Positions 1 to 18,944 of a stretch of 29,330 nucleotides of DNA are shown here, piece after piece. The notes beneath the pieces are model-generated. The model saw only the letters and a program-made list of their open reading frames with translations. It ran no database searches and had not been told where the DNA came from. Made by a program: the position numbers and the translations under genes. How positions within the stretch are numbered: the stretch's first letter is position 1; each line of letters begins with the position of its first letter. Source of the DNA: Prevotella sp. UBA7764 (GTDB lineage Bacteria; Bacteroidota; Bacteroidia; Bacteroidales; Bacteroidaceae); the NCBI GenBank assembly GCA_002481295.1, contig DLDU01000022.1, forward strand, positions 1 through 29,330. Direction: 5' to 3'.

Positions 1-648
1 CACTATATAGAAGAAATGTATGGTAGTGAGTTGAATAAAAAGCAGAAGTACTATACGTCCTTGGTTGCCGCCCAATATGAAATGGGCATTAGCGAGGGAA
101 AAAACAATCTGCTAACATGGGTTATTGGTTTGATAGTTCTTTCCGTAATGGTCGTATTAGCTTTTATTTCTTATGCCTTCTGGCAGTATCAACTTAAAGC
201 TAAAAGAAAAATTAAGAACGAGAAAGAGAAGCGTGAAATGGAGAAAAAAATGCATGAGGAAGAAATGCGGCATAAGGAAATCCAACTTTCAACCATGCGT
301 AGCTACCTGCTCAAGAAAATCAATATAGCACAAAGGATAGAAAAAATGCGTGGAAACAAGAAGAACATCGTCGTTCTAACGGAGGAGGATTGGGAAGAAA
401 TTAAGATGTTTGTTGATAATGTGGAGGGTAATTTCATATCAAGGTTAAAGAAGCGATTTCCAAAATTAAGCGATGAAGATATTAAGTTCATGATTCTTAT
501 TCGCCTCAAAATGTCTTCCAAGGCTATGGGATTAATTTACAATATCAGTGAAAAGTCAATTCGCCAAAAGTTGTTTGTGTACAAGTCAAAAGTTGGCTTG
601 GAGGGTAAGAACAGCCCATCTCTAAGGTCGTATATTGAGTCTTTTTGA
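1..648 (+). CDS. Membrane-anchored HTH transcriptional regulator, C-terminal part (5' truncated by window edge)
   Basis: The reading frame is open from base 1, so the start lies outside the window; 215 residues are visible. In order they hold a short charged helix, one hydrophobic segment (about visible residues 37-60), a highly charged coiled coil rich in Lys/Glu (about 65-110), and a C-terminal helical domain (about 150-205; LSDEDIKFMILIRLKM, then SSKAMGLIYNISEKSIRQ). That last domain reads like a LuxR/GerE-type helix-turn-helix. This layout matches the Bacteroidetes regulators that place periplasmic TPR repeats, a single membrane helix, a coiled coil and a DNA-binding end in one chain; the TPR part would be upstream. 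It lies immediately before the peptide cluster on the same strand and is its likely local regulator. That role is inference. The HTH assignment is by pattern only. Confidence 0.75.
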   Translation, partial: HYIEEMYGSELNKKQKYYTSLVAAQYEMGISEGKNNLLTWVIGLIVLSVMVVLAFISYAFWQYQLKAKRKIKNEKEKREMEKKMHEEEMRHKEIQLSTMRSYLLKKINIAQRIEKMRGNKKNIVVLTEEDWEEIKMFVDNVEGNFISRLKKRFPKLSDEDIKFMILIRLKMSSKAMGLIYNISEKSIRQKLFVYKSKVGLEGKNSPSLRSYIESF

Positions 649-658
649 TGTCCTGAAA

Positions 659-755
659 TGAAGAAATAGACATTAAAAAATGGGGTGGTTTAGTTAATTT
701 GCTGAATATCAATACTCTTTTTTGATTTTTATAATTGGAGAAATAGACATAAAAT
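659..755 (+). promoter_or_regulatory. Paired direct repeat upstream of the RiPP operon promoter (candidate operator)
   Basis: Two copies of a roughly 20-bp sequence with the identical core AGAAATAGACAT lie at 659-678 and 736-755 in the same orientation. The second copy ends 2 bp before the -33 element of the promoter at 758-788, which suits an activator site. The neighbouring membrane-anchored HTH regulator is the obvious candidate ligand; that link is inference. Confidence 0.45.
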
Positions 756-757
756 AT

Positions 758-788
758 TTTGAGGCTTAGAATAAACAGTCTAACTTTG
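758..788 (+). promoter_or_regulatory. Bacteroidetes-type promoter of the RiPP operon
   Basis: TTTG at 758-761, a 19-bp spacer and TAACTTTG at 781-788 fit the Bacteroidetes primary sigma consensus. Transcription would start near 795, about 20 bases before the ATG of the DUF3244 gene. No other good promoter was seen before the maturase or precursor genes. Confidence 0.75.
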
Positions 789-816
789 CAATCGAAAACA
801 ATAAACACGAACAATT

Positions 817-1170
817 ATGCAAAAGGTCATTTTATTTCTGACGATGTTGCTGGTCTTATCCCCCTGCCAGGCAACCAGCATAAATGTAAAGAGGAATGTT
901 ATAGCTCATAAAGGAGGTATGCGGATGCCATCAGCTACACAAGTAGCAGCAGACTATGAGGATAGAGTCGTCACAGTTGGTATTTCGCGTTACACCGGTA
1001 ATGTTCAAGTCTACGTTTACGATGCGAACGGTATAGTTGTCGGCTATACTGTCTCCACCATATCAGGTAGTGGCACTGTAACTTTGGACACAAGCAATCT
1101 GCCGCAAGGGGATTACACGCTATGTATAATCTTGGACAATGCCACATATAGTGGTGAATTTTTCATTTAA
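817..1170 (+). CDS. Secreted DUF3244-like small protein, first gene of the RiPP operon
   Basis: This is a 117-residue protein with a Sec-type signal peptide (Met, Lys, a hydrophobic run to about residue 17, then small residues before ATSINV). The mature part is all-beta in character: VTVGISRYTGNVQVYVYDANG, a variable loop, then LPQGDYTLCIILDN near the end. This resembles the DUF3244 family, small immunoglobulin-like secreted domains common in Bacteroidales whose function is not established. It is the first gene after the operon promoter and lies 18 bp before the radical SAM maturase. A periplasmic or surface job in the peptide system (immunity, chaperoning, partner binding) is possible but unproven. 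It has no double-glycine motif and is not a second precursor. Confidence 0.75.
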   Translation: MQKVILFLTMLLVLSPCQATSINVKRNVIAHKGGMRMPSATQVAADYEDRVVTVGISRYTGNVQVYVYDANGIVVGYTVSTISGSGTVTLDTSNLPQGDYTLCIILDNATYSGEFFI

Positions 1171-1188
1171 ATAGATGTTTTTCACAAA

Positions 1189-2499
1189 ATGAAGTGGAGC
1201 AGATATAATATTATTTTTAAGACGCATATGGGAGATGATATTCTTCTGTATAATACATTGTCTAATGTTCTACTTAAACTAGACAAGAATGATGCTGAGG
1301 GCTTAATGAAAATTAAGTCCGGCAAGATTTCTGTAGATAGTTTAGAAGAGCAAACAAGGAAGGCTCTAGTAGACAACAAAATCCTCATAAGTAATGATGA
1401 TATAGAATTAGCCAAATTTAAATTGTTAAAGCAATACAATAGGATGGATGATTCTGTTCTGGCATTAACCATTGCACCGACCTTGGCGTGCAACCTACAT
1501 TGTGCATATTGCTTTGAGCAACAACACCCTTCTGTCTTTATGAATGATGACGTTGAGAATGATATAATCAGCTTCATTAAGGGACACGTTAACACTAAAT
1601 ATATCCATGTTACGTGGTTTGGGGGAGAACCGTTACTTTACTTTAAAAGAATCATAAGCCTAACGAAAAAGATTAAGTCTATACAAGGCATTGAGAAATA
1701 TGAGGCTGAGATAATCACAAATGGTGTAAACATGAACGAGAAGATCGCATCCAGTCTTTGCGAATTGAATATCAATACCGTCCATGTAACAATTGATGGG
1801 TTAAACTCAGCCAATAACGAAAGAAGAATCGGGTTAAATCATGAAGACACCTTTGCCAAAATAGTTAGAGGATTGGATCTTTTAGCAAAAGATGACAATA
1901 TTTCAAAGACCGTAAGAGTCAATACGGATAAGACAAATTCAGACCAGTTTGTTAAAGTCTATGATTTTGTTCGCAACAGATATTGTGGTCTCAACTTTAA
2001 TGTCTATGTTGGATTTATTAAGGACTCATACGGATGTGGCAACTCTTGTGTCGGATGTCTTAATAATACTGAGCAAGGTAAGTTTTTGATTAAATCTTAT
2101 AAAAAATTAGGTGTACCCACTGAGACTTTGCTTCCTCCACGATATAACTATGAATGTATTGCACGCTTAAAGAATGGCTATCTTATAGGACCCAAGGGAG
2201 ACTTATATAAGTGTTGGACAGACCTAGGCAACTTATCTATGTGCTTAGGTTATATAAATGATTTAGACAACATTTCGATAGATTTGCTGTCTGAATACAT
2301 GGTAGGTAATGACCCTTTCTGTGATTCTGAATGCATGAAATGTGTCCTATTCCCAATTTGCGGTGGAGGTTGTCCACATTCCCGAATAATGAATCAGTTT
2401 CACGGTGCTAAAAACGATAACTGCTGTTTTGCAAAAGAGAATATAGAGGAATTTATTGAAACCTATTATCATTTGCAACAGTCTATAAATAAATTTTAA
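1189..2499 (+). CDS. Radical SAM/SPASM peptide maturase
   Basis: This 436-residue protein should use S-adenosylmethionine and iron-sulfur clusters to modify the adjacent precursor peptide. Residues 1-90 form an N-terminal domain typical of peptide-maturing radical SAM proteins (NTLSNVLLKLD region). The radical SAM cluster motif C-x3-C-x2-C is at Cys101, Cys105 and Cys108, followed by the glycine-rich WFGGEPLL. A SPASM domain ends the chain, with CMKCVLFPICGGGC at 382-395 (C-x2-C-x5-C-x3-C) and further cysteines at 412-413. An extra C-x3-C-x2-C lies at 283-290 between the barrel and SPASM parts. It sits 18 bp after the DUF3244 gene and 10 bp before the precursor. The bond it makes (thioether, carbon-carbon or other) cannot be told from sequence. 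Assignment to the GG-Bacteroidales maturase group is likely. Confidence 0.92.
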   Translation: MKWSRYNIIFKTHMGDDILLYNTLSNVLLKLDKNDAEGLMKIKSGKISVDSLEEQTRKALVDNKILISNDDIELAKFKLLKQYNRMDDSVLALTIAPTLACNLHCAYCFEQQHPSVFMNDDVENDIISFIKGHVNTKYIHVTWFGGEPLLYFKRIISLTKKIKSIQGIEKYEAEIITNGVNMNEKIASSLCELNINTVHVTIDGLNSANNERRIGLNHEDTFAKIVRGLDLLAKDDNISKTVRVNTDKTNSDQFVKVYDFVRNRYCGLNFNVYVGFIKDSYGCGNSCVGCLNNTEQGKFLIKSYKKLGVPTETLLPPRYNYECIARLKNGYLIGPKGDLYKCWTDLGNLSMCLGYINDLDNISIDLLSEYMVGNDPFCDSECMKCVLFPICGGGCPHSRIMNQFHGAKNDNCCFAKENIEEFIETYYHLQQSINKF

Positions 2500-2509
2500 A
2501 TAATTAAGT

Positions 2510-2722
2510 ATGGTAAAATTATCAATTACTGTATTAAGGACTTCGCGTCCTTTAGAGATCGATGCTAAGTCTGCTATGTGTCGAACTATGAGTCCAGAGA
2601 TGCAGGCAAATATTTTGGGAGGAAAAGCATCTGTCGATAAAGTTGACAAAGCGCAGATGTGTGATGCCGTCTGTTATCCTTCGGAAATGGGGGTTTGTCA
2701 TTGTTACCAGAACCTATGCTAA
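2510..2722 (+). CDS. RiPP precursor peptide with double-glycine leader and five-cysteine core
   Basis: This is a 70-residue peptide. The leader (1-38) ends in MSPEMQANILGG, fitting the LSxxEMxxIxGG pattern cut by C39 peptidases after Gly-Gly. The predicted core (39-70) has cysteines at 51, 55, 63, 65 and 70, spaced C-x3-C-x7-C-x-C-x4-C, with a final Cys at the C terminus. The leader carries one more Cys (24). It resembles the natural product precursor, GG-Bacteroidales family. It follows the maturase by 10 bp and shares its operon; a stable hairpin lies just behind it. A C39 exporter encoded downstream matches the leader type. Core chemistry and activity are unknown. No second precursor was found in the window. 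Confidence 0.88.
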   Translation: MVKLSITVLRTSRPLEIDAKSAMCRTMSPEMQANILGGKASVDKVDKAQMCDAVCYPSEMGVCHCYQNLC

Positions 2723-2730
2723 TTAATTAT

Positions 2731-2770
2731 GAGCCGTGGCTTGACAGTTTCGAGTCACGGTTCTGTCTTT
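2731..2770 (+). terminator. Hairpin directly behind the precursor gene (partial terminator or 3' stabiliser)
   Basis: The arms GAGCCGTG (2731-2738) and CACGGTTC (2756-2763) pair, with an inner CTTGA/TCGAG stem and the loop CAGTT, followed by TGTCTTTT. It starts 8 bases after the precursor stop and ends just before the barrel gene. It would let the precursor message exceed that of the downstream gene. Confidence 0.6.
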
Positions 2771-2785
2771 TGAATAATTTTTCTT

Positions 2786-4819
2786 ATGAGATCTTTTGTT
2801 GTTTGTTTCTTCCTATGTATGTCCATTTTGCCAATAAGAGCTCAGATCGACACACTGAACATACAACACTTGAAAGGTGTAACTGTAAGTGGTCAATATA
2901 TACAACAAGCAGCCGACCATTACAATTGCATTCCTACGTCGAAACAGCGTAAACATTCGCACTCAGGTTATGAACTTGTAAGAAGCATGATGATACCGGG
3001 TGTTGACGTGGACACAGAAAGCGGGAAAGTGTCGACTCCTGCTGGTGCTGCCACTCTCTATATAAATGGTCGCGAGGCAACCTTTAGAGAAATACAAAGT
3101 CTGAGGTCGAAAGATGTCGTACGTGTAGAGTATTACGATATGCCGACAGGAAAGTACGCTAAGGATTTGGCAGTGCTCAATTATGTTGTCAAACAGTTCA
3201 AGTCTGGAGGCTACACGCAGTTGGACGCGCTGCAAGGCTTGGGCTACAAGTGTGGAGACTACAACCTCACTTCCAAATACAGTTTTGGAAATTGTAACGC
3301 AAACCTATGGGCTGGCTACAGCAACGCCAATCCAAAGGAAGACGTGGTCTCAAAGGAGGACTACCTGCTACCTGCTGCTGTTGCAAAGGTTTCTTCATCC
3401 AGCGGAAATGACAAAGAAAACATCGGAAAGTACATAACCGCAAGCATTAGTAACATGACACCAAAACGGACGTGGATGCTTCGGGCAAGTATTGAGGCCA
3501 GTAAACAGTGGGATAATATTCTGAATGGCAAAACGGAATATACTTCAGAGCATGGAAATTTGGCTTTTGACAAGACGCAATACTCACTAAGCAGTACTGT
3601 AAAACCTACATTATACGCTTACTTTCAAAAGCAGATAGGATCGAGCCACAGCTTTGACGCTGTCCTCGATTGCTATTATGCCGACAACAAATACAACCGT
3701 GACTTCCTTGAGGGCGGCAGGTTTGTAAGTGATGTCGATGAGGACTATTTCTATGGAAAGTTCAATGCCAACTACAGTATCGCCCTGCCGAAGAGTAATA
3801 ACCTTACTTTCAGTCTTCATGAGTATATGCGAGTCTCGCAAGACAGCTACGGAGGTTCAGCCGATTATTGGCAGCATCTGCATTCATCAGAGACAATATT
3901 CTTTGTGGACTATAACAAGAGGTGGAAGAAAGTGATGCTTGACTTCAATCCCGGTCTGTCGTATCTTGTCTACAGACTGCATGACGATGATGCGGTAAAG
4001 CACGTCGCCCCACGTCTTCAACTTTCATCGTCATGGATGCCTGACAAGTTACAGCGTATCCGTTTGTTCTTCTCCTTGGGTAATACATTCCCTTCATTGA
4101 ACACTGTCAACAATGTGAGTCAGCAGATTGACCGCATCATGATACGTCGTGGCAATCCGGATATGAACAACTCCACTTTGCTCGGTCCCGGCTTTACCTA
4201 CTCCCTCAATTACAAGCAGATTTCAGCAATGCTTTCATGCTACTACATGTATATGAGCAATGCCATCGTAAACACTTACTCCATTGAAGGCGGTAACATT
4301 ATAAACACATTCTCAAGCGATGCGCGAAGTCATCAGGCTTCCACATCGTTGTCCGTTACATGGAAACCGTCGGCAAGTTTCAACGTCAAGATGGATGGCA
4401 ACTTCACATATGCGAGAGTGACTATGGCAGATGAAGAGCAGCTGAGAGGATGGCAGATGGGCTTGCAAGCCAACTACTATGTTCGCGACTTCTTCTTCTC
4501 AGCTTCTTGCAAATCATTGACCCGTTCACTGAACAATTATCAATACCATATCCGTCAACCGTGGCAATACGGTCTGTCTGCAGAATGGAGCCACAACAAT
4601 CTTGCTGTGGTGTTGGAGGTGAAGAACCTTTTCATACAGGACAACGTTTTGAAACGGTCACTATCGGCAGAAATTTACAACCTTTCTGAGCAATTCCGCC
4701 GTGAGAGGGACAATTCCTACGCTTCTTTAAAGCTTATCTGTTCAATCGATTATGGAAAGAAAGTGAGCCATTCCCTAAAGTATGAAACAAAGAATGCCGA
4801 TAGTACTATAATGAGATAA
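2786..4819 (+). CDS. TonB-receptor-like outer-membrane beta-barrel protein of the RiPP cluster
   Basis: This is a 677-residue protein with a clear signal peptide (hydrophobic to about residue 16, cleavage near IRA-QID). A plug-like domain follows: LVRSMMIPGVDVDTESGKVS around 65-85, then ATLYINGREAT and SLRSKDVVRVEYYDMP at about 90-125. The rest is a long run of alternating aromatic and polar strands, typical of a barrel (for example NLWAGYSNANP, LDFNPGLSYLVYRL, LLGPGFTYSLNYKQ). The usual N-terminal carboxypeptidase-regulatory domain of SusC-type receptors is absent, and no obvious TonB box was seen. It is separated from the precursor gene only by a hairpin. It may carry the modified peptide across the outer membrane, act as its receptor, or serve in uptake; these are inferences. 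Confidence 0.8.
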   Translation: MRSFVVCFFLCMSILPIRAQIDTLNIQHLKGVTVSGQYIQQAADHYNCIPTSKQRKHSHSGYELVRSMMIPGVDVDTESGKVSTPAGAATLYINGREATFREIQSLRSKDVVRVEYYDMPTGKYAKDLAVLNYVVKQFKSGGYTQLDALQGLGYKCGDYNLTSKYSFGNCNANLWAGYSNANPKEDVVSKEDYLLPAAVAKVSSSSGNDKENIGKYITASISNMTPKRTWMLRASIEASKQWDNILNGKTEYTSEHGNLAFDKTQYSLSSTVKPTLYAYFQKQIGSSHSFDAVLDCYYADNKYNRDFLEGGRFVSDVDEDYFYGKFNANYSIALPKSNNLTFSLHEYMRVSQDSYGGSADYWQHLHSSETIFFVDYNKRWKKVMLDFNPGLSYLVYRLHDDDAVKHVAPRLQLSSSWMPDKLQRIRLFFSLGNTFPSLNTVNNVSQQIDRIMIRRGNPDMNNSTLLGPGFTYSLNYKQISAMLSCYYMYMSNAIVNTYSIEGGNIINTFSSDARSHQASTSLSVTWKPSASFNVKMDGNFTYARVTMADEEQLRGWQMGLQANYYVRDFFFSASCKSLTRSLNNYQYHIRQPWQYGLSAEWSHNNLAVVLEVKNLFIQDNVLKRSLSAEIYNLSEQFRRERDNSYASLKLICSIDYGKKVSHSLKYETKNADSTIMR

Positions 4820-4849
4820 TGATTATTCATAAAGGTAAAACTTGACTTA

Positions 4850-5293
4850 ACAATGAGATCCATAAAGAAGAGGCTCAAATAATAGTTAACTTGTAAAAAC
4901 AGATGGAATACCTTTTCCGGCCAAAGACTACATTGGCTCTGATAGGTAAAATGTCCAAAGAGATCAGCAAGTTGAAATATACGACCTAATTGCTGCGTCA
5001 AGACTTCGTTCAATGACTGACAGCACCTTTGCTAAGGTCTTTGCACCGGCTGGTAAACTACGCTTTACCCAGGGTAAATTTGATATAATCAGCTTGTACC
5101 GTCGAAATACAAAGGCATCTTCTTGGCAGATGCCATTATAGGACTCGATACCAAGCATAGCGATTATGAATTAGGATTTAACAAAAATGTCAATAAGAAA
5201 TCGTAAGCCCGATCTACCGTTACAGACCTGACTACAGTACGTTCGGAGACGATTCTCCGTGGGCAAAAGTTTCTGCTGATGCTTATATATAAA
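4850..5293 (+). pseudogene. Decayed coding remnants between the barrel gene and the exporter
   Basis: No intact gene spans these bases, but several blocks look coding in shifted frames. One frame reads PFPAKDYIGSDR, a stop, then VEIYDLIAASRLRSM and KVFAPAGKLRFTQGKF (about 4904-5085). Another frame then reads KYKGIFLADAIIGLD and DYELGFNKNVNKK up to a stop near 5205. A third gives YRYRPDYSTFGDDSPW and ends in a stop at about 5290. This is what a frameshifted gene looks like. The family is not recognised. It is not obviously a HlyD adaptor or a transposase. Confidence 0.4.
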
Positions 5294-5303
5294 CCATAAT
5301 GCC

Positions 5304-7499
5304 ATGAAGTTGAAGAAACAGTATGATTCTATGCAATGCGGAATGGTATGTTTGCAGATGGTTTCCGAACATTATGGACAAACGCATTCGCTCGAAAAAA
5401 TATCCGTTCTTTGTCCACCGACTAAGGAGGGGACATCATTGTTAGGACTCAACGACGCAGCGGTAACGTTGGGCTTTTATACTGTTTGCGCAGAGACGAA
5501 AGTTAATGAACTAAATTATTTACCTCTTCCTTGCATTCTTCATTGGAACCAAAATCACTTCGTCGTCCTATACAAAGTCAAAAAGGGCAAGAAGTTCTAT
5601 GTCGCAGACCCTGGCAAGGGACTTGTAAAATATAATCTTGAAGAGTTCAAGAGTCACTGGATAAGCACAAAGTCAGACGGGGAGGAGAAGGGCATAGCGA
5701 TGTTTCTGGAGCCTACGCCCAGTTTCTATACTCATAAGGAGGACGGCGAGGGTGAAAAGAATAAGAATCCGCGGTCGTTCCGCTTCCTCTTCGGCTATGT
5801 GAAGAAGTACAAGCACTATTTCGGACAGGTCGTCTTGGGCATGATCGTGGGCAGCCTCTTGCAGCTCGTCCTGCCGTTCCTCACCCAGTCCATCGTCGAC
5901 GTGGGCATCAAGAATCAAGACCTTGGCTTCATCTGGCTGATACTGCTCGGTCAGCTGATGCTCACCTTCAGCCGTACGGCCATCGACTTCATCCGCCGGT
6001 GGCTGTTGTTGCATATCTCTATGAGGGTCAACATCTCGTTGGTGAGCGACTTCTTCATCAAACTGTTGAAATTGCCGATGTCGTTCTTCGACACCAAACT
6101 CATGGGCGACCTCATGCAGCGGATGAACGACCACAGCCGCGTGAACAACTTCCTCACCAACCAGGCATTGAGCGTGACCTTCGCCATGCTCACTTTCGTG
6201 GTGTTCACGGTGGTGCTGCTGTTCTACAACAAACTGATCTTTGCCATCTTCCTTGCGGGCAGTCTGCTCTACGGCCTTTGGATGACGCTCTTTCTGCGCC
6301 GCCGCAAGGTGCTGGACTATGAGCTCTTCGAGCAGCAGGCCATCAACAACAACAAGACCTACGAGTTCATCACGTCCATGCAGGAGATCAAGCTTCAGGA
6401 CTGTGAGCAGCGACGCCGTTGGGAATGGGAGGACACGCAGGTAGACCTCTTCAACGTGCAGATGAAGTCGCTGAAGCTGCAACAGACGCAGGAGGCCGGC
6501 AGTATCCTCATCAACGAGGTGAAGAACATCGTCATCACCGTTGTGGCAGCCGCTGCCGTCATCCACGGGCAGATGACGCTCGGTATGATGCTTGCCGTGC
6601 AGTATATCATCGGACAGCTCAACTCGCCAGTGGAGCAGCTCATGAACTTCTTCTACTCACTGCAGGATGTGAGAATCAGCCTGGAGCGCATCAACGAGAT
6701 CCACCGCGCCGAGGACGAGAACGGAAAGAAAGGCCTCAGAACCTCGCTAACCGACAACACCAAGGGCATCGACATCGAGCACATCATGTTCAAGTACGAC
6801 CCTCACGCCTTGCGCAAGACCTTGGACGACGTGACGATACGCATCCCCAATGGGAAAGTGACGGCCATCGTTGGTGCCTCGGGCAGCGGCAAGACGACGC
6901 TCGTCAAACTCATGCTCGGCTATTATCCCGTCTTGGAGGGTCAAGTCAATATTGGTGGCACGGACATCAACACGCTCAACAAGAAATGGTGGCGGCGCCA
7001 GTGCGGCGTTGTCATGCAGGACGGTGTCATCTTCTCGGAGAGCATAGCAAGAAACATTGCCGTTGACGACGGTGACATCGACAAGGAACGCTTGTTGAAG
7101 GCCGCACGGATAGCGTGCATCCACGACTATGTGATGTCGCTGCCACTGAAGTACAACACGAAGATAGGTCGTGACGGTGTGGGACTGAGCCAGGGGCAGC
7201 GTCAGCGCATCCTCATCGCCCGTGCGGTGTACAAGAATCCCGACTATATCTTTCTTGACGAGGCCACCAACTCGCTCGATGCCAACAACGAGCGGGCCAT
7301 CGTGGAGAACCTCGACACGTTCTACCGTGGCAAGACCGTCGTCATCGTCGCCCATCGCCTGAGCACGGTCAGGAATGCTGACCAGATTGTCGTCATCGAC
7401 CATGGAAAGGTCGTCGAGACGGGCAACCACGAGACGCTGACAGCAAAACGAGGAGTGTACTACAATCTTGTCAAGAATCAGTTAGAGTTAGGGAACTGA
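5304..7499 (+). CDS. Peptidase-C39 ABC exporter (leader-cleaving peptide transporter)
   Basis: This 731-residue protein joins three parts. Residues 1-145 are a C39 cysteine peptidase with Gln6, Cys12 (QYDSMQCGMVCLQ), His85 (NHFVVLY) and Asp102 (VADPGKG). Residues about 165-455 are the ABC exporter membrane domain. Residues about 495-731 are the ATPase, with Walker A GASGSGKTT (524-532), signature LSQGQ (628-632), Walker B YIFLDE (648-653) and the switch His684. All catalytic residues are present, so it should be active. It should cut the double-glycine leader at the inner membrane and export the core. No HlyD-type adaptor or TolC gene follows. The first about 400 bases are near 42% GC and the rest near 54%, hinting at a mosaic gene. 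Confidence 0.93.
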   Translation: MKLKKQYDSMQCGMVCLQMVSEHYGQTHSLEKISVLCPPTKEGTSLLGLNDAAVTLGFYTVCAETKVNELNYLPLPCILHWNQNHFVVLYKVKKGKKFYVADPGKGLVKYNLEEFKSHWISTKSDGEEKGIAMFLEPTPSFYTHKEDGEGEKNKNPRSFRFLFGYVKKYKHYFGQVVLGMIVGSLLQLVLPFLTQSIVDVGIKNQDLGFIWLILLGQLMLTFSRTAIDFIRRWLLLHISMRVNISLVSDFFIKLLKLPMSFFDTKLMGDLMQRMNDHSRVNNFLTNQALSVTFAMLTFVVFTVVLLFYNKLIFAIFLAGSLLYGLWMTLFLRRRKVLDYELFEQQAINNNKTYEFITSMQEIKLQDCEQRRRWEWEDTQVDLFNVQMKSLKLQQTQEAGSILINEVKNIVITVVAAAAVIHGQMTLGMMLAVQYIIGQLNSPVEQLMNFFYSLQDVRISLERINEIHRAEDENGKKGLRTSLTDNTKGIDIEHIMFKYDPHALRKTLDDVTIRIPNGKVTAIVGASGSGKTTLVKLMLGYYPVLEGQVNIGGTDINTLNKKWWRRQCGVVMQDGVIFSESIARNIAVDDGDIDKERLLKAARIACIHDYVMSLPLKYNTKIGRDGVGLSQGQRQRILIARAVYKNPDYIFLDEATNSLDANNERAIVENLDTFYRGKTVVIVAHRLSTVRNADQIVVIDHGKVVETGNHETLTAKRGVYYNLVKNQLELGN

Positions 7500-7590
7500 C
7501 GAAAGTCATCTGCAATCATTTCCTTAGAGATAAAGACAAGAGTTACTCGTCTTTTGAGATAAGTATGACAGTTTATGTCATATAAGATAA

Positions 7591-7620
7591 GAGCAGAGCG
7601 ACAAATACTGTGCTCTGCTC
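7591..7620. terminator. Hairpin between convergent exporter and OmpH-like genes
   Basis: Nine-base perfect arms GAGCAGAGC (7591-7599) and GCTCTGCTC (7612-7620) lie 90 bp behind the exporter stop and 27 bp behind the opposing gene's stop. The T tract is weak on either strand. It probably serves both genes. Confidence 0.7.
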
Positions 7621-7647
7621 CCTATATATCTGATTGAATGAAGTCGT

Positions 7648-8244
7648 TTACTTCTTCAGTTTGCTTTTGTAGGCTTTGTTCAGTCCGGCGACCACCTCGT
7701 TGGTGATGTCGTAGGCTTTGTCGGCATAGAGCACGTTGTCGCCCTGCTTGGCAAAGATCATACCATACTTCTTATCCTTGTTGTAGATGGCCAGATAGTG
7801 CTGCAGTGAGTCGTGCAGTGCCTTGTTGTATTTGTTGGTCTCCTCCTGGAACTCACCGCTTAGTCGCTGGTTGAGCTGCTGCAGGTCATTGCTTTGTTTC
7901 TGTAGTCCAGCCTGTATAGCCTCAGCCTGCTCGCGCGTGTATGCGTTCTGCTGTACCTTTTGTTGGAAGTTGGCAGCGGCGGCCTGCAGTTGCTGCTGCT
8001 TGCCGGCGAGCGTCTTTTGGATGTTGTTGCCCTTCTGCTCGAGGATCTTGCTGTACTCCTTGCAGAACTGATACTGCGTCATGATGGAGTCTACCTCCAC
8101 GAAAGCAATCTTGGAACTTGCGGCTTTCGTTGTTGTCTCAGGAGCCTTGTCGTCCATCTGGGGCTTGCTCTTGTCGCAGCTGACGAGCGTGAGAGCTGAC
8201 ATAGCCATCACGGCCAGCGTGCGTAATGCGTTTGTAGTTTTCAT
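7648..8244 (-). CDS. OmpH/Skp-family chaperone-like lipoprotein
   Basis: The start at 8244 (MKTTNALRTLAVMAM) is chosen because it begins a lipoprotein signal with the lipobox LVSC; the longer open frame upstream has no signal. The product has 198 residues. After the lipidated Cys comes a Lys/Asp/Thr linker, then IAFVEVDSIMTQYQF, a long Gln-rich coiled coil (about 65-150), and the end KKYGMIFAKQGDNVLYADKAYDITNEVV. That order and ending are typical of the OmpH/Skp family, periplasmic chaperones for outer-membrane proteins. It is second in a two-gene unit behind a small membrane protein, with a 44-bp gap, and likely shares that promoter. Confidence 0.85.
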   Translation of the reverse strand: MKTTNALRTLAVMAMSALTLVSCDKSKPQMDDKAPETTTKAASSKIAFVEVDSIMTQYQFCKEYSKILEQKGNNIQKTLAGKQQQLQAAAANFQQKVQQNAYTREQAEAIQAGLQKQSNDLQQLNQRLSGEFQEETNKYNKALHDSLQHYLAIYNKDKKYGMIFAKQGDNVLYADKAYDITNEVVAGLNKAYKSKLKK

Positions 8245-8288
8245 TGTCTTGTATTCTGTTTTGTTTTTAATTTCCGATAGCGTGCTGA

Positions 8289-8483
8289 TCACATTGCCTG
8301 CGACTTCATGCGAGCCTCCCGGTCTTGGTCGATGACGCAATGGATGCCCTGCTTGCGAAGGGCGGCATTGTCGTGGATGTGCTGCGACTGAAACGAGCCG
8401 TTCTTCTTCAGGATGACGCGCGCACACAGCAGGATCATGGCAATAGCAATTATTAACACCGTGCAGAGTAATGTTTCTATCAT
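8289..8483 (-). CDS. Small conserved-looking one-pass membrane protein
   Basis: This is a 64-residue protein starting at 8483 (MIETLLCTVLIIAIAMILL). It has one N-terminal membrane helix (about 3-22), a basic patch, and a soluble tail with HIHDNAALRKQGIHCVIDQD and a Cys at about residue 48. It lies inside a much longer open frame on this strand that overlaps pepD; only this part has a matching promoter and a plausible start. Similar short proteins (membrane helix, then an ALRKxGIxCVxxxD stretch) are recalled from other Bacteroidales, and the layout is reminiscent of NqrM-like proteins, but the function is not known. Confidence 0.65.
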   Translation of the reverse strand: MIETLLCTVLIIAIAMILLCARVILKKNGSFQSQHIHDNAALRKQGIHCVIDQDREARMKSQAM

Positions 8484-8524
8484 TTTTTGTAATTTTGCAG
8501 TGCTTGCTTGCACAATTATAAGTG

Positions 8525-8555
8525 CAAAGATAGCACAATAAAGGCAAATGACAAA
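8525..8555 (-). promoter_or_regulatory. Promoter of the small membrane protein - OmpH-like unit
   Basis: Read on the minus strand: TTTG (8555-8552), a 19-bp spacer, then TATCTTTG (8532-8525), a full match to the Bacteroidetes consensus. Transcription would start near 8518, about 35 bases before the start codon at 8483. Confidence 0.65.
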
Positions 8556-8591
8556 GAAAAAACACATAAACCTTATTAAAAAACGAACATC

Positions 8592-10043
8592 ATGGCAGAA
8601 TTGAAACCAGCTCGCGTGTTCGAGCAATTCGCAAAGATCAACCACATACCCCGCCCCTCGAAACACGAGGAACAAATGATCGCCTTCCTGAAGAAGTTTG
8701 GCGAGGATCACGGTTTGGAAACACTGGTCGACGAGACCGGCAACGTGCTGATCCGCAAACCGGCTACCAAAGGCTATGAGAACCGTCCTACCACGATTCT
8801 GCAAAGCCACATGGATATGGTATGCGACAAACTCGTCGATGTGGACTTCGACTTCTATAAGGACGCTATCCAGACTTATGTCGACGGTGAGTGGCTCCAT
8901 GCCAAAGGCACTACGTTGGGTGCTGACGACGGTATCGGCGATGCCATCGAGTTGGCCATCCTCGACTCCGACGACATCGAGCACGGTCCGCTGGAGTGTG
9001 TCTTCACCGTCGATGAGGAAACAAGTCTCGGCGGTGCCATCGGCATGAAACCCGGTTTTATGACCGGTAAGTATCTTGTCAACCTCGACTCTGAGGAGGA
9101 AGGTCAGATTTTCATCTCCTGTGCCGGTGGCATGTCTACCACCGCCACCTTCCGCTTCCAGCGCGAGGATACGCCTAAGGGCTACTTCTTCTTCGAAGGC
9201 AGTCTCAAAGGCCTCAAAGGCGGACACTCCGGCGACGACATCGAGAAGAAACGTGCCAACGCTATCAAGATCCTGGCCCGCTTCCTCTATATGGAGCAGA
9301 GCAAGACCGACCTGAGACTGGCACAGTGGAACTCCGGCAAGATGCACAACGCCATCCCGCGTGACGGCAAGATTGTCTTCGCCGTGCCTGCTGACAAGAA
9401 GGAAGAGGTGAAGGCTGACTGGAACATCTTCTCCAAGGATGTTGAGGACGAGTTCCACGTTACGGATGTCAACATGGTATGGAGTCTGCAGAGCACCGAC
9501 GCGCAGCAGGTGCTGCCCAAAGAGGTCAGCCGCAAACTGATTGCCGGACTTCAGGCTCTGGACAATGGCGTCTTCGCCATCTGCCAGGATCCGGCCCTGA
9601 ACGATATGGTGGAGACTTCCAGCAATGTTGCCAGTGTGCATACCACCGACGACAGCGTCGTCTTCGTTGCCAGCCATCGCTCCAATGTAACAAGCAACCT
9701 TCGCAACATGGCCAATACGGTGCGTGCCGCCTTTGAACTGGCAGGCGCGGAAGTGGAGCAGGGCAGCGGCTATCCCGCGTGGAAGATGAACCCCAACTCC
9801 AAGATGGTGAAGGTGGCCGTCGATGCTTACAAGAAACTCTTCCACAAAGATCCTGTCGTGCGCGGCATTCACGCCGGTCTGGAGTGCGGCTTGTTCTCAG
9901 AGAAATATCCTGAGCTCGACATGGTCAGCTTCGGTCCTACGCTCCGCCACGTCCACACTCCGGACGAGTGCCTGCACATCCCCACGGTACAGATGGTGTG
10001 GGATCATCTGCTCGAAATTCTGAAGAATATTCCCGAGGAATAA
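8592..10043 (+). CDS. pepD: Aminoacyl-histidine dipeptidase (cytosol non-specific dipeptidase)
   Basis: This 483-residue protein is of usual length for PepD, a cytoplasmic M20/M28-clan zinc dipeptidase that splits Xaa-His and many other dipeptides. Metal-site residues are visible: HMDMVCDK (His73, Asp75), TTLGADDGIG (Asp112), the DEETSLGGA pair Glu142-Glu143, and NLDSEEEG. A C-terminal histidine is in LRHVHTPDE. The start at 8592 is followed by the typical KPARVFEQFAKINHIPRPS. A TAATTTTG at 8490-8497 could be its -7 box, though no good -33 partner was seen. A small lipoprotein gene follows after 3 bp, so the two are probably co-transcribed. Confidence 0.95.
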   Translation: MAELKPARVFEQFAKINHIPRPSKHEEQMIAFLKKFGEDHGLETLVDETGNVLIRKPATKGYENRPTTILQSHMDMVCDKLVDVDFDFYKDAIQTYVDGEWLHAKGTTLGADDGIGDAIELAILDSDDIEHGPLECVFTVDEETSLGGAIGMKPGFMTGKYLVNLDSEEEGQIFISCAGGMSTTATFRFQREDTPKGYFFFEGSLKGLKGGHSGDDIEKKRANAIKILARFLYMEQSKTDLRLAQWNSGKMHNAIPRDGKIVFAVPADKKEEVKADWNIFSKDVEDEFHVTDVNMVWSLQSTDAQQVLPKEVSRKLIAGLQALDNGVFAICQDPALNDMVETSSNVASVHTTDDSVVFVASHRSNVTSNLRNMANTVRAAFELAGAEVEQGSGYPAWKMNPNSKMVKVAVDAYKKLFHKDPVVRGIHAGLECGLFSEKYPELDMVSFGPTLRHVHTPDECLHIPTVQMVWDHLLEILKNIPEE

Positions 10044-10046
10044 TCT

Positions 10047-10418
10047 ATGATCAGAACGTTGAAAACGACTTTGCTGCCTCTGCTGACACTGGCCTTCCTA
10101 CTCTCGGGCTGTGGCGAGCGTCATGAGGCGCGCAGTATGGCCCAGAACTTCATGGAGGAACACATGCCCATGCAGGACTATGAGGTCGTGCGCTGGTCAC
10201 GTCTCGACTCCACGTTTTTTGTCACGCCCGTGGCTTTGAAGGCTATGCATGCCGAGGCCGAGCGTTCGAAGATCGTCAATCATCGGGTCAGCTATCAGGG
10301 CTATACGCCCAAGCTCCTGTTCATGCACGGCTGGTTTGCTCACGACCGCGACACTGTCTCCCGCACATTCTACTTCGACGAAAAGCTCCAGGGCATTGTG
10401 GGAGTGAAACGAAACTGA
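10047..10418 (+). CDS. Small lipoprotein of unknown function
   Basis: This is a 123-residue protein with a lipoprotein signal (MIRTLKTTLLPLL, lipobox LLSGC with Cys at about 22). The mature part has ARSMAQNFMEEHMPMQDY and a C-terminal strand-rich part (TVSRTFYFDEKLQGIVGVK). It begins 3 bp behind pepD and shares its operon; a strong terminator follows. No family is recognised. A link to peptide use is not shown by anything but position. Confidence 0.75.
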   Translation: MIRTLKTTLLPLLTLAFLLSGCGERHEARSMAQNFMEEHMPMQDYEVVRWSRLDSTFFVTPVALKAMHAEAERSKIVNHRVSYQGYTPKLLFMHGWFAHDRDTVSRTFYFDEKLQGIVGVKRN

Positions 10419-10463
10419 TGCCGTTCGTCCCAAGACAGCATTACATTTTTATTTCATAGGAAG

Positions 10464-10516
10464 CCTCGATGCATCGTGACAATCGTTGCGACGCATCGGG
10501 GTTTCTCGTTTTTGGT
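10464..10516 (+). terminator. Terminator of the pepD operon
   Basis: Arms at 10464-10476 and 10489-10501 pair over 13 positions with two G-T pairs (CCTCGATGCATCG against CGACGCATCGGGG). The inner TGAC/GTTG can extend the stem. TTTCTCGTTTTT follows. It lies 45 bp behind the small lipoprotein stop. Confidence 0.8.
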
Positions 10517-10715
10517 AGATTTGCTTTCATACTCTCATACAGAGGCACAGAGACACAGGGATGGCAACAGCCTTGTGGGGTAATACGATGACGCGAAGAA
10601 TGCATGACAAAAGTCTGTCAGTTCTTGCGGACCATCCAGAAAGAACGGCGGGGTAAAAATCAAAGAAAATAAGGGTGACGACGCCAAAGAACAGACGTTT
10701 CAGAGAAAAATCAGT

Positions 10716-10847
10716 GAGTTGATAGGATCAGATAAGCGGTTTTATGCGGTCAAAACGGTGAGATGATCGGCCCAAACAACCGAGATGACCGGATCAAACA
10801 ACGGAATTCATCGGGACAAACAACTGAGATGACCGGCACAACACTCT
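10716..10847. repeat. Six in-register 22-bp degenerate tandem repeats, non-coding
   Basis: Units begin at 10716, 10738, 10760, 10782, 10804 and 10826, each exactly 22 bases. The best units read GAGATGA(C/T)CGG followed by CAAACAAC: 10760-10781, 10782-10803 and 10826-10847; 10804-10825 is close, and the first two are weaker. A period of 22 is not a multiple of three and no ORF spans it, so a protein repeat is unlikely. An array of binding sites or a decayed minisatellite are the main options. Confidence 0.7.
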
Positions 10848-10951
10848 CTTCTGACAAGGAGACAAGGGTGCGGACAAACATAATTGCTTGTGTGTTAACT
10901 GTTTACGAAAAGTACCTCTAAATTCGTGAAAATCGGGGCGGCAGACGACTT

Positions 10952-10986
10952 GCTCGGAAAGAACGCTTTCTCAGAGCTCGTTTTTT
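10952..10986 (+). terminator. Terminator-like hairpin in the long gap, + strand
   Basis: GCTC (10952-10955) pairs with GAGC (10974-10977), GAAAG (10957-10961) with CTTTC (10966-10970), loop AACG, then TCGTTTTTT. The nearest upstream gene already has its own terminator at 10464-10516, so this one suggests an extra transcript across 10520-10986. Confidence 0.5.
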
Positions 10987-11164
10987 GTCAGAAAAGGCAA
11001 CAAACAGATAAATATTTATCTAACGTTTCAGTCCTCATCTCCTTTATGGAGTGAGGTGCAGGGGAGGAGGCAGTGAGGCTTGTAGCCGGCCTGCGTTCTC
11101 TGTGGCTCTGTGTGAGCTTGCTCTTAATCGTGGCTGGTTGTTGTGAAATAAATATCACTGATAA

Positions 11165-11196
11165 GTTGCAGGAATGAAACTTTTTTGTTAAATTTG
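11165..11196 (+). promoter_or_regulatory. Promoter of the DUF805 gene
   Basis: TTG at 11166-11168, a 20-bp spacer and TAAATTTG at 11189-11196. Transcription would start near 11203, about 43 bases before the ATG at 11246. Confidence 0.65.
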
Positions 11197-11245
11197 TGTC
11201 GAATATACTCAAAACTTCAATTTCTAACTTAAAATCGTATTGATT

Positions 11246-11632
11246 ATGAACATGGTTTCCGCTTTCAAGAAAGTAGTTTTTCAGAACTACCTCAACTTTG
11301 ACGGGCGTGCACGCCGTGCTGAGTACTGGTGGTTCGCTCTTGACAATGTTGTCATTTGCTTTGTATTGGGCTTCATCAATGGATTTGCAGTGGAGTCCGG
11401 TGACTTTGTTTCCATCTTGTTGAGTAGTATCCTCTACTATGGTGGAGTTTTGGCCTTGTTGCTTCCAAATTTAGCCGTGACTTGGCGTCGTCTTCACGAC
11501 ATGGGCAAGGGTGGACAGTGGTATTGGATCTCTCTTATCCCTATCATCGGCACCATTTGGCTCCTCGTGCTGCTTTGCCAACCGAGCGAGCCGCAGGAGA
11601 ACCGCTTTGGCCCTGAGGTAGAAGAAGAATGA
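11246..11632 (+). CDS. DUF805-family inner-membrane protein
   Basis: This is a 128-residue protein. The start is put at the ATG of 11246 (MNMVSAFKKVVF); an in-frame TTG six bases earlier is less likely. The sequence has the family hallmarks: an amphipathic start, YLNFDGRARRAEYWWFAL, three to four membrane helices, LAVTWRRLHDMGKGGQWYWI, and a final helix with the tail CQPSEPQENRFGP. DUF805 proteins are small polytopic membrane proteins of unknown function, widespread in bacteria. The gene is monocistronic, with its own promoter and a hairpin behind it. Confidence 0.92.
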   Translation: MNMVSAFKKVVFQNYLNFDGRARRAEYWWFALDNVVICFVLGFINGFAVESGDFVSILLSSILYYGGVLALLLPNLAVTWRRLHDMGKGGQWYWISLIPIIGTIWLLVLLCQPSEPQENRFGPEVEEE

Positions 11633-11639
11633 GCATAAG

Positions 11640-11805
11640 CAAAAAACACAGCCCCGGAATCACTTCCAAGGCTGTGCTATCTTAATTGTGAAAAATCTAA
11701 AGATAAATTGAGCGACTCTCCGCTCAAAGTGTTATCACAATCTTAAAACCTAATAACTAAAAACCTAAATCTATTACTAACCTAAACAATCTATTAACCT
11801 TTTGA
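11640..11805 (-). ncRNA. Candidate small RNA, minus strand (about 165 nt)
   Basis: A promoter-like pair lies on the minus strand: TTG (11841-11839), a 20-bp spacer, TAATTTTG (11818-11811). The transcript would start near 11805 and run through an A/U-rich part, a hairpin TTGAGCG/CGCTCAA (11708-11727) and the terminator at 11676-11641. It has no ATG-initiated ORF before the terminator. The alternative is that these A-rich bases are only the trailer of the DUF805 gene. Confidence 0.4.
11647..11676. terminator. Bidirectional terminator behind the DUF805 gene
   Basis: CACAGCC (11647-11653) pairs with GGCTGTG (11670-11676), with an inner GGAA/TTCC stem. On the minus strand it is followed directly by TTTTTT (11646-11641), a very good terminator tail. 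On the + strand the tail CTATCTTA is weaker. Confidence 0.8.
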
Positions 11806-11963
11806 CACTGCAAAATTACTAAGTTCTCTGCATTCCCACAATTTATTTTCCTCATAAAAATCGAATTTTATTGTTTAATTGATTTGCGTCAATTGCTGTG
11901 TGCGATAACAAATATATGAAGTGTTATTTTTGTTTAACAGCCCATCAATTAGTCTCTCGAAGA

Positions 11964-11995
11964 TTTGGAGATAACCACAAAAACTCCTAACTTTG
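11964..11995 (+). promoter_or_regulatory. Orphan promoter of a candidate small RNA
   Basis: TTTG at 11964-11967, a 20-bp spacer and TAACTTTG at 11988-11995 match the full Bacteroidetes consensus. The next + strand gene is kilobases away; a terminator follows about 110 bases later. Confidence 0.65.
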
Positions 11996-12010
11996 TCTAT
12001 AGAAAAGAAA

Positions 12011-12038
12011 GAAAAAGACACGTCATAGTCTGACGTGT
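12011..12038 (-). terminator. Terminator-like hairpin for the glycoside hydrolase transcript
   Basis: On the minus strand ACACGTCA and TGACGTGT (arms 12038-12031 and 12025-12018) are followed by CTTTTTC and more T-rich sequence. It lies about 100 bp behind the stop of the minus-strand gene. Confidence 0.5.
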
Positions 12039-12104
12039 ATCATAAGCAATAAGAAATTTTGATTTGTTTTAGTAGATTAGTTTTTAAGTAGTTTGTTTTT
12101 TGGG

Positions 12105-12137
12105 AATCGGTTGTCGTGAGACACCCGATTTTTTTTG
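12105..12137 (+). terminator. Strong + strand terminator ahead of a convergent gene
   Basis: AATCGG (12105-12110) pairs with CCGATT (12125-12130), with TGTC/GACA inside and a GTGA loop, followed by a run of T residues. It ends right at the 3' end of the minus-strand glycoside hydrolase gene. Confidence 0.8.
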
Positions 12138-12138
12138 T

Positions 12139-13209
12139 CTATTTTGTCTGAGCTTTAATGAAATTTACTTCCTGTGTGAGGTATGGCGATCCGTCGGGTC
12201 GCAGGATGTCGTGGAACCACACGTCGGGTTCGCTACCGTCGGGGTGTGGATCGCCCCAGGCATAGCGTGTGTTGGTCTTACCGGTGACCAGTCCCCAGTT
12301 GATGGCAATCACACGGTGGTGTTTGAGCAGTGGCATGATTGTGCGGAAGAAACTGCCTTGCGTGCGCGCCATATACTCGGTGCAAGCCAAAGGACGACCA
12401 AGGGCTTGAAGCTTCTTGATCTCCTGCTCATGGCGGATGGAACCGTGGTAATCATGATACGAGATGATGTCGGAATTACTCAACTGAAAGTCGTTGAGTG
12501 GCTTGAAATCTTTAGTATCACGCCAAATGCCGGCAGTCAGCGGTTGCTGGGGGTGGCATTGGCGGGCCCAAATGAACACATTGCGCAACAGAGGCAGCGA
12601 CGTGGTGCCATGATGGCTGTTGCCCGGCTCATTATATAGGTCCCACATGAGCACACGGCTGTCGTGGCCGAAGGTCGTGAGAATATCCTGAACGTAGCGC
12701 TTCAGTTGTGGATAGAGCTTTGCGGTGTCTAACCGCAGATCGCAGGAGGGATCCTGTACCCACTGGCTGTTGTGAACGCCCGTGAGAGGCCGAGGCTGTG
12801 GACCGTATGAAGATACTGCATTCCAGCAGTCGTCAAAGAAGGCAAACATCGGCTTGATGCCATGTGAAGCGCAGACAGAGAGAAAGTCATCCATCCGTGT
12901 CTTTAATCCTTGAGAATCGTGGGCATAGACGATGCTGCTGAGAAACACGCGCAGGGTCTTGAAGCCCAACTGCTCGGCCCAGCCCAGTTCCTTGTCGATG
13001 GTGGCATGGTCGTAGGTTGCCTCGCTCCACATCTCTATCTGATTATCAGCGTTGGCGGGGATATAATCGCAACCAGCCATCCAAGGGTATTGCGCATACC
13101 ACTTGTTGGCTTTCTCTGCCGTCCATCGTCCGGCAATCGTCTCAGCGAACATAGTTGGAAAACTAAGAAACAAACAAACGATAATCAGTAATAAACGTAG
13201 TCTTTTCAT
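12139..13209 (-). CDS. Secreted glycoside hydrolase of the GH5-like (clan A) fold
   Basis: The start at 13209 (MKRLRLLLIIVCLFL) is preferred to one 45 bases upstream because it begins a clean signal peptide, cleaved near FAE-TIA. The product has 356 residues. It shows a TIM-barrel glycosidase pattern: ELGWAEQLGFKTLRVFL (strand 2), HGIKPMFAFFDDCW, LMWDLYNEPGNS with the likely acid/base Glu194, DIISYHDYH, and ACTEYMAR with the likely nucleophile Glu278, then VIAINWGLV. The substrate is probably a beta-glycan; similar proteins are often labelled cellulase or 1,4-beta-xylanase, but specificity cannot be read here. It is the last gene of a thrE - mnmA - hydrolase run on the minus strand, 63 bp behind mnmA. 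Confidence 0.82.
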   Translation of the reverse strand: MKRLRLLLIIVCLFLSFPTMFAETIAGRWTAEKANKWYAQYPWMAGCDYIPANADNQIEMWSEATYDHATIDKELGWAEQLGFKTLRVFLSSIVYAHDSQGLKTRMDDFLSVCASHGIKPMFAFFDDCWNAVSSYGPQPRPLTGVHNSQWVQDPSCDLRLDTAKLYPQLKRYVQDILTTFGHDSRVLMWDLYNEPGNSHHGTTSLPLLRNVFIWARQCHPQQPLTAGIWRDTKDFKPLNDFQLSNSDIISYHDYHGSIRHEQEIKKLQALGRPLACTEYMARTQGSFFRTIMPLLKHHRVIAINWGLVTGKTNTRYAWGDPHPDGSEPDVWFHDILRPDGSPYLTQEVNFIKAQTK

Positions 13210-13272
13210 AATGTAGGGAGTCTTTGCTTTATTTGTTTTCCCCTTCTGTACCATTTTACCTCTATTCTTTCT

Positions 13273-14355: not shown

Positions 14356-14370
14356 GATGGTTGTTGACGG

Positions 14371-15795: not shown

Positions 15796-15894
15796 GAATA
15801 CTGTCTTAATAAATGATTGGTAACCTATTGACTAAACAAAAATGTAATATCGAGTGCAAAGTTACTCATTTTTTATGAGATATTATCATTTTCT

Positions 15895-15926
15895 CTTGTT
15901 CGTCAACGTACTTTTTCATAACTTTG
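15895..15926 (+). promoter_or_regulatory. Promoter of the aldose-1-epimerase-like gene
   Basis: TTG at 15896-15898, a 20-bp spacer and TAACTTTG at 15919-15926. Transcription would start near 15933, about 22 bases before the ATG. Confidence 0.65.
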
Positions 15927-15954
15927 CTATAAAGTAAACCAATCATTGAGAATA

Positions 15955-16824: not shown

Positions 16825-16860
16825 TTGCGTCAGCAGACCGACTTTCTATAATCAGGTGGG

Positions 16861-18285: not shown

Positions 18286-18289
18286 TTAT

Positions 18290-18317
18290 GAATGTTGAAT
18301 GATGAATGTTGAATGAT
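18290..18317. repeat. 14-bp direct repeat in the queE-cls spacer
   Basis: GAATGTTGAATGAT occurs twice back to back (18290-18303, 18304-18317), with GAAT of a third copy following. Each unit is itself two related heptamers. It fills the space between the queE stop and the cls start and looks like simple-sequence slippage. Confidence 0.8.
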
Positions 18318-18320
18318 GAA

Positions 18321-18908: not shown

Positions 18909-18944
18909 ATAATAGCTTCCTTAATCTTTTTCTCCTTATTATAT

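Follow-up and report, generated by a model that had tools for sequence, protein, structure and literature searches.

A candidate horizontally mobile RiPP cassette of Bacteroidales with a TonB-dependent transporter that may be specific for its product

The first quarter of a 29,330-nucleotide stretch of Prevotella sp. UBA7764 DNA (contig DLDU01000022.1, positions 1 to 29,330, beginning at base 1 of the contig; the whole stretch is called the window) contains a locus of the type that produces ribosomally synthesized and post-translationally modified peptides (RiPPs). The host and Segatella baroniae B14 (G208) fall into one genus-level group; the host genome (G000) is 88.6% complete. Six parts lie on the plus strand of positions 1-7499 in the order regulator fragment, DUF3244 gene, radical S-adenosylmethionine (SAM) maturase, precursor, outer-membrane barrel and C39 ATP-binding cassette (ABC) exporter. 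An earlier note, made from the letters of this DNA, had listed these parts in a row, and all six were found again at the same positions. The assignment to RiPP-type loci made there also stands, as a precursor with a double-glycine (GG) leader, a radical SAM maturase and a C39 exporter are all present. We lean slightly towards reading the locus as a horizontally mobile RiPP cassette whose barrel would be a TonB-dependent transporter specific for its product. The probable product of the cassette is a short peptide, rich in cysteine and unusually conserved in sequence, that is cross-linked and exported. The features central to this reading are the following.

1189..2499, plus strand: radical SAM/SPASM-type peptide maturase, 436 amino acids (PF04055, 59.9 bits against a cut-off of 29.5)
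2510..2722, plus strand: precursor peptide, 70 amino acids; leader 2510-2623 ending in GG, core 2624-2719
2660-2674 and 2696-2704, plus strand: core motifs CDAVC and CxC, within 2624-2719
2786..4819, plus strand: TonB-dependent-transporter-type outer-membrane protein with plug and barrel, 677 amino acids (AlphaFold model, fold search)
5304..7499, plus strand: C39 peptidase-containing ABC exporter, 731 amino acids, open frame (PF03412, PF00664, PF00005)

A protein search with the precursor gave five matches, two of which are the scar proteins P0004 and P0005 (see below). Another is a relative with 59% identity in Hallella (E 5e-17); the better-scoring P0001 may be the window's own cluster. The maturase, the precursor and a close relative of the barrel occur together in seven loci, that is, the window, B14, L050, L048, L049, L092 and L093 (L numbers designate loci of other genomes). 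Thus the association of these genes is beyond chance. The earlier note had considered that related genomes might lack the precursor while keeping the other genes; the precursor is present in 7/7 loci with the maturase and the close barrel.

The barrel as a candidate receptor

The AlphaFold model of the barrel, built from 27 alignment rows, has a mean predicted local distance difference test score (pLDDT) of 84.4. An earlier model from 5 rows (pLDDT 50.7) had the same fold class among its matches. The best fold matches are plugged TonB-dependent transporters, e.g. PirA, BtuB1 of B. thetaiotaomicron, FhuA and OprC, and by this model the barrel is a transporter of that kind. The TolC fold is outside the 50 structural matches listed, although absence from the list is no proof. 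A TolC-like exit was considered as the role of the barrel and replaced, since the plugged transporter model fits. The suggestion of the earlier note that the barrel takes the place of both adaptor and TolC is not supported either, as several relatives have the barrel together with a short HlyD-like adaptor.

Close relatives of the barrel are found in the loci with cores of the CDA type, B14, L050, L048, L049, L092 and L093. The ratio of precursors to TonB-dependent transporters to C39 exporters is 2:2:1 in L049, L092, L093 and L050 (one weak minus-strand match was left out, and the second L092 precursor, with two cysteines, was chosen by eye), 1:1:1 in L129, and 4:4:1 in L054, where the C39 gene is clipped by the end of the stretch. 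Since the model is that of a plugged transporter and the number of receptors tends to track the number of precursors while the exporter is single, the barrel probably serves as a receptor dedicated to the product.

The L054 locus (positions 7247-19738, from a Phocaeicola metagenome-assembled genome) encodes four GG precursors with diversified cysteine-rich cores, a receptor beside each, and one maturase. In the alignment of its four receptors, 56-88% of columns are alike in the first 225 positions, 4-52% in positions 226-475, and 12-72% beyond. Such variability in the region 226-475 would follow if each barrel had to accommodate a different peptide.

Several observations weigh against a dedicated receptor. 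The L051 locus has a CDAVC precursor and a maturase, but one transporter per two precursors and none behind the CDAVC pair; no C39 exporter is present in the L051 stretch. No profile-recognised transporter was found in L052, L053, L091 and L094. Receptors exceed precursors by two in B14, where 38 kb were read, and by one in L048. The consensus LxEVxVxA near the N-terminus of the 27 aligned barrels, which we take to resemble a TonB box, is a candidate box only. Moreover, most relatives of the barrel reside elsewhere: a maturase is present in one (L129) of the 20 neighbourhoods fetched, and this one also contains the exporter. For this reason the barrel by itself was rejected as a RiPP marker. 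Relatives at 1e-10 occur in 47/393 order-level genomes, the window's own included; given this and the single maturase among 20 neighbourhoods, the barrel is, by sequence comparison, a common transporter type recruited into the cassette.

The position of receptor genes relative to the exporter also counts against a receptor function. A receptor-type gene lies directly 5' of the C39 gene in B14, L048, L049, L092, L093 and L129, and in the window a broken receptor tail lies directly upstream of it. This adjacency would equally fit an export partner. It thus favours the interpretation of the earlier note, in which the peptide leaves through the barrel in the outer membrane, in cooperation with the C39 exporter, as does the published text on four Bacteroidales clusters that combine C39 with an outer-membrane protein and no adaptor (PMC10352776). 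However, an exit does not agree with the plugged model or with the several loci in which receptors equal precursors in number and the exporter is single. In B14, L048, L049, L092 and L093 the exporter-adjacent receptor is a different gene from the close barrel, and some relatives also carry an HlyD-like adaptor. We regard an exit function as quite improbable, and a receptor function as the most likely role of the barrel given its model and genomic context.

The precursor family

The precursor has GG at residues 37-38 and five cysteines downstream. The GG is retained in 7/7 precursors aligned. No family of either NCBIfam or Pfam matched the precursor at E <= 1. A profile search yielded 42 proteins; after two scar proteins (P0004 and P0005, see below) were left out, 40 remained, possibly including the window's own cluster, P0001. 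These approximately 40 database proteins share the same double-glycine leader and the core CDAVC[LY]P..[WMYH][GD]..C.C..NL. The motif CDA[VI]C is present in 39 of the 40, and the C-x-C pair follows further on in 35 of these 39 cores. Four cysteines are conserved, whereas the fifth occurs in 10/39 family members. The five-cysteine peptide proposed in the earlier note is thus not supported at the level of the family.

Among loci chosen by the maturase alone, a less biased sample, the six best comprise L047-L051 with CDAVC and L052 without it; CDAVC was not seen in L053 and L054 either. Of five further genus-level genomes, L092 and L093 carry a CDAWNC variant, SCDAWNCAPDCTCKNLA and DCDAWNCAPDCQCKNNLA, and the cores of L091, L094 and L003 are unlike the CDAVC type. 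In 7 of the 42 precursor clusters the longest contig is exactly as long as that of a listed maturase, compared with a mean of 0.2 and a maximum of 3 for jittered lengths. Named carriers are Segatella baroniae B14, Labilibaculum manganireducens 59.10-2M and Hallella multisaccharivorax DSM 17128.

A genus search with alignment A1, which included the two scar proteins, matched 5/398 genomes. Two extra places in G208 coincided with its two regulator starts and were dropped; the matches in G218, G329 and G331, which cover the same part and are presumed regulators, were dropped as well. An order-wide search with the clean alignment A3 matched 2/393 genomes, the window's own and one with a weak match containing a stop. 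Among the titles listed in searches of open papers, supplements and figures being outside these searches, none names this peptide; the four papers matching the core motif are, judged by their titles, about the optic nerve (three) and motor control (one).

The core is little changed across Segatella, Hallella, Muribaculaceae and Labilibaculum. Because the precursor search depends on common five-residue words, this invariance is partly built in. That the core is nearly fixed across Bacteroidales points to an unchanging target or ligand (a metal, a nutrient or a signal) rather than to an arms-race toxin. A different possibility is an antibacterial, microcin-like product; the barrel would then be the receptor through which it enters target cells, or would make the producer immune. 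Export by C39 proteins after a GG leader is common to bacteroidetocins and colicin V, according to the text of PMC10352776; TonB-dependent transporters can receive RiPP toxins, and one of the fold matches is FhuA with microcin J25; the distribution is patchy and the locus seems to move horizontally. However, so little change of the core would be unusual for a toxin, and no leftover gene of the cassette looks like an immunity gene, though no search aimed at immunity genes was made. A toxin is somewhat unlikely.

The maturase and the type of cross-link

The maturase has the CX3CX2C motif at residues 101-108. It resembles several families named radical SAM/SPASM, each under its cut-off (25 of 70 families are listed). 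Full-length similarity is seen to TIGR04334 (204 bits), TIGR04463 (201 bits) and NF038107 (200 bits), with curated cut-offs of 600, 525 and 600 unmet; the PapB model gives 100 bits against a cut-off of 340. The nearest PDB chain is 5wgg (E 5.2e-24, profile A2), which we take to be CteB, a ranthipeptide (thioether) synthase. At 1e-3 the maturase matches 2398 database proteins, 120 of which are listed, and matches at E 1e-60 or better are found in 7/398 genus-level genomes, its own included. By sequence it is a relative of known thioether synthases, and its chemistry may be of the same kind.

As described in the text of PMC9413430, PapB links Cys to Asp or Glu in Cys-x3-Asp/Glu motifs. Cys55-x3-Glu59 of the precursor matches this spacing. 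Position 59 is Glu in 25/39 cores and Gly in 12/39, and therefore the Cys-x3-Glu linkage cannot be the sole link.

It is also conceivable that disulfides arise between the four conserved cysteines once the peptide is exported, while the maturase performs another reaction, e.g. a carbon-carbon link or epimerisation. The B14 island contains a C39-like/VKOR/thioredoxin-like protein, and L048 has a weak relative of it (E 2e-6). On the other hand, the window contains no VKOR/thioredoxin-like gene, the other loci scanned have none at E 1e-3, and 5wgg, the PDB chain closest to the maturase, is presumably a thioether synthase. Disulfides in place of thioethers are therefore rather unlikely. The B14 gene (L089:6945-8447) has C39-like and VKOR regions and weak thioredoxin similarity, and adjoins a gene for a Porph_ging-domain protein.

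Two unusual maturase genes were seen. The maturase gene of Hallella multisaccharivorax DSM 17128 (L050, near 10780) is divided between two reading frames, which marks either a pseudogene or a sequencing error. In L049 (3472-6819) a single open reading frame of 1115 amino acids combines a second radical SAM maturase with a TonB-dependent-transporter-type barrel; it is a fusion, a missed internal start or an assembly error.

Horizontal transfer and integrity of the locus

The locus is 95.3% identical to that of Segatella baroniae B14 over 4.9 kb and 86.7% over 2.5 kb. By comparison, 19.9 kb of neighbouring DNA gives six matches longer than 400 bases at 66-75% and eight shorter ones (50-322 bases) at 67-94%. 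The number of synonymous substitutions per site (dS) is 0.06 for the maturase, 0 for the precursor, 0.08 for the barrel, 0.16 for the DUF3244 gene, and about 0.5 for the regulator and the exporter. The OmpH-like and peptidase genes to the right of the locus are on the other chromosome of B14, and in the 9 kb read there the locus is absent. The G+C content is 36-46% in the first 6 kb of the window and mostly 48-58% further right. Since the locus is 87-95% identical to B14 and neighbouring chromosomal genes are 66-75% identical, we read it as acquired by horizontal transfer, with the maturase-precursor-barrel cassette as the part probably exchanged most recently.

P0004 and P0005 (database proteins from 1 and 19 contigs, respectively) consist of a regulator start fused to a frameshifted precursor core. 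As they are deletion scars, the locus has been lost in some relatives. Such loss, the broken second receptor and the absence of an adaptor among the genes found in the genome might indicate that the locus of the window is itself a decaying remnant with no product. However, all six frames are open (the regulator start being off the contig), and nonsynonymous change is well under synonymous change in the regulator, maturase, barrel and exporter, e.g. 0.046 nonsynonymous substitutions per site (dN) at a dS of 0.48 for the exporter. The precursor differs from that of B14 by three changes, all nonsynonymous, which are too few to judge selection. Decay is an improbable explanation.

The exporter, the broken receptor gene and the adaptor

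The earlier gene list was correct as far as it went, but overlooked the following feature upstream of the exporter.

4976..5299, plus strand: C-terminal end of a second TonB-dependent-receptor-type gene, broken and interrupted by in-frame stops (similarity to a B14 receptor)

This tail lies within the 484 bases upstream of the exporter and is 52% identical to the last 106 residues of the B14 receptor encoded directly upstream of the exporter, with 69% identity at the DNA level.

A short HlyD-like protein is encoded behind the exporter in B14 (157 residues) and L129 (169 residues), and 5' of the maturase in Hallella (160 residues). Its start resembles the start of the full-length L091 HlyD protein, which has the HlyD_3 domain (E 7e-9). 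Similar HlyD-like membrane stubs of 63 residues are encoded behind the barrel in L048 (13713-13904) and L092 (6584-6775), and are perhaps adaptors reduced to an anchor. As a further point against a working cassette in this genome, the short B14 protein has no homologues in the window or in the window's genome, which is incomplete to the extent given above, and two in G208. Export may thus be impaired here. As several relatives have the adaptor as well as the barrel, its absence seems peculiar to this genome or to its assembly. The B14 adaptor gene sits directly upstream of the type of regulator in which the window's contig begins, and given this and the completeness of the genome, adaptor loss and an assembly gap are indistinguishable.

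Organization of the operon

Upstream of the maturase, and between the precursor and the barrel, the locus contains the following features.

1..648, plus strand: C-terminal 215 residues of a regulator-type protein (83% identity to residues 319-533 of a 533-residue B14 protein)
781..788, plus strand: promoter-type motif TAACTTTG, 36 bases upstream of the DUF3244 start
817..1170, plus strand: small DUF3244 protein, 117 amino acids, with a signal-peptide-like start judged by eye (PF11589, 32.8 bits against a cut-off of 25)
2731..2763, plus strand: RNA hairpin of 14 base pairs directly 3' of the precursor gene, before the barrel (z -5.0)

The contig starts inside the regulator gene, whose full-length B14 relative has 533 residues. 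Read by eye, with the start taken from the B14 relative, the regulator has a lipoprotein-like start, a membrane helix, a coiled coil and a helix-turn-helix end. The B14 regulator scores 28.4 bits with TPR_12, under the cut-off of 30.1.

The motif TAACTTTG, which we take to be the Bacteroidetes promoter consensus of the -7 type, recurs at -37 in both B14 operons, and TAATTTTG is at -40 in L049. No such motif precedes the DUF3244 gene in L048, and the situation in L050 is unclear. Five such motifs are present on the plus strand of positions 1-8000. The gaps between the DUF3244 gene, maturase, precursor and barrel are 18, 10 and 63 bases; together with the single promoter-type motif, these short gaps suggest that the genes from DUF3244 through the barrel form one operon.

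The earlier note considered the DUF3244 gene at the operon head unusual. In fact, this regulator, promoter motif and DUF3244 gene also head both B14 operons. The DUF3244 protein also passes the NCBIfam cut-off for the C-terminal sorting domain of the type IX secretion system (T9SS; 24.4 against 23 bits), and because of this score it may be a lone domain of the sorting-domain fold. Assignment of a known function was dropped, the solved DUF3244 chain 3sd2 being matched at E 0.6 only. DUF3244 is mentioned in two papers, in one of them (PMC10434189) in gene tables.

The hairpin is found 3' of the precursor in 6/6 loci folded. The z values are -5.0 in the window, -3.0 in L047, -2.3 in L050, -3.7 in L048, -5.4 in L049 and -5.0 in L051; of 200 shuffles, 0, 1, 4, 0, 0 and 0, respectively, folded as well. 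L047 is nearly identical to the window and the other folded loci are unlike it in sequence; L092 and L093 were outside the sample. A hairpin at this position fits a candidate attenuator or an RNA-processing element.

Further along the window, at positions 27001-29000, the G+C content falls again to about 37%, and small genes are found, including one for a helix-turn-helix-like protein (27787-28155). This is possibly another acquired stretch.

Proposed function and comparison with known systems

The following scheme may be proposed. The regulator would act on the promoter upstream of the DUF3244 gene. The radical SAM enzyme would bind the leader and introduce cross-links into the conserved core CDAVCYPSEMGVCHC; as a first guess these are ranthipeptide-like thioethers, Cys55 and Glu59 having the PapB spacing. 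The C39 domain would then cleave after the GG, and the ABC exporter would carry the core out of the cytoplasm, in the relatives probably with the shortened HlyD-like adaptor. At the cell surface the barrel may bind the mature peptide, alone or with cargo, for uptake or sensing, and may also protect the producer.

The closest published counterparts are the Bacteroidales RiPP clusters with a radical SAM enzyme and a peptidase-containing ABC transporter (rSAM/PCAT; Fernandez-Cantos et al. 2023, PMC10352776). Like the window, they combine a radical SAM enzyme, a GG-leader precursor, a C39 exporter and an outer-membrane protein, and some have a tetratricopeptide repeat (TPR) protein and no adaptor. 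Unlike the situation in the window, neither a TonB-dependent transporter nor pairing of receptors with precursors is mentioned in the text of that paper seen. Colicin V and the bacteroidetocins share with the window a GG leader that is cleaved and exported by a C39 ABC transporter; the locus described here differs in having a radical SAM maturase, a shortened or absent adaptor, and a receptor-type barrel in the cassette.

Ranthipeptide systems (CteB/SCIFF, PapB/PapA) resemble the window in the maturase, which is similar to 5wgg and to the PapB model, in the cysteine-rich core and in the Cys-x3-Glu spacing. However, the maturase is under the cut-offs of the 25 families listed of 70, the precursor matches none of the NCBIfam or Pfam models, and the cassette of the window has a TonB-dependent transporter. 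The CefB, Clo7bot and TIGR04463 maturase families of NCBIfam are alike over the full length at 200-204 bits, against cut-offs of 525-600. In methanobactin-type systems, a ribosomal cysteine-containing peptide is likewise encoded beside a TonB-dependent transporter, but the enzymes differ, and a metal link of the locus described here would be hypothetical.

A fixed core speaks for a metallophore or a signal over a toxin, although the data do not decide. Extended further, and as a rather doubtful proposal, the CDAVC peptide would be a conserved ribosomal metallophore or signal of Bacteroidales, cross-linked by a new radical SAM subfamily. A C39 exporter working with a shortened adaptor would release it, and a TonB-dependent transporter dedicated to it would bring it back; the precursor, maturase and receptor would form one cassette that moves between species and uses a shared exporter.

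Bacteroidales dominate the gut and the rumen, and to our knowledge very few of their radical SAM peptides have a known product or job. The nearly fixed core, the paired receptor and the named carrier strains make the question testable with one peptide, one maturase and one receptor. The apparent match between receptors and precursors also suggests that the outer-membrane protein in such loci may indicate the purpose of the peptide and not its exit route.

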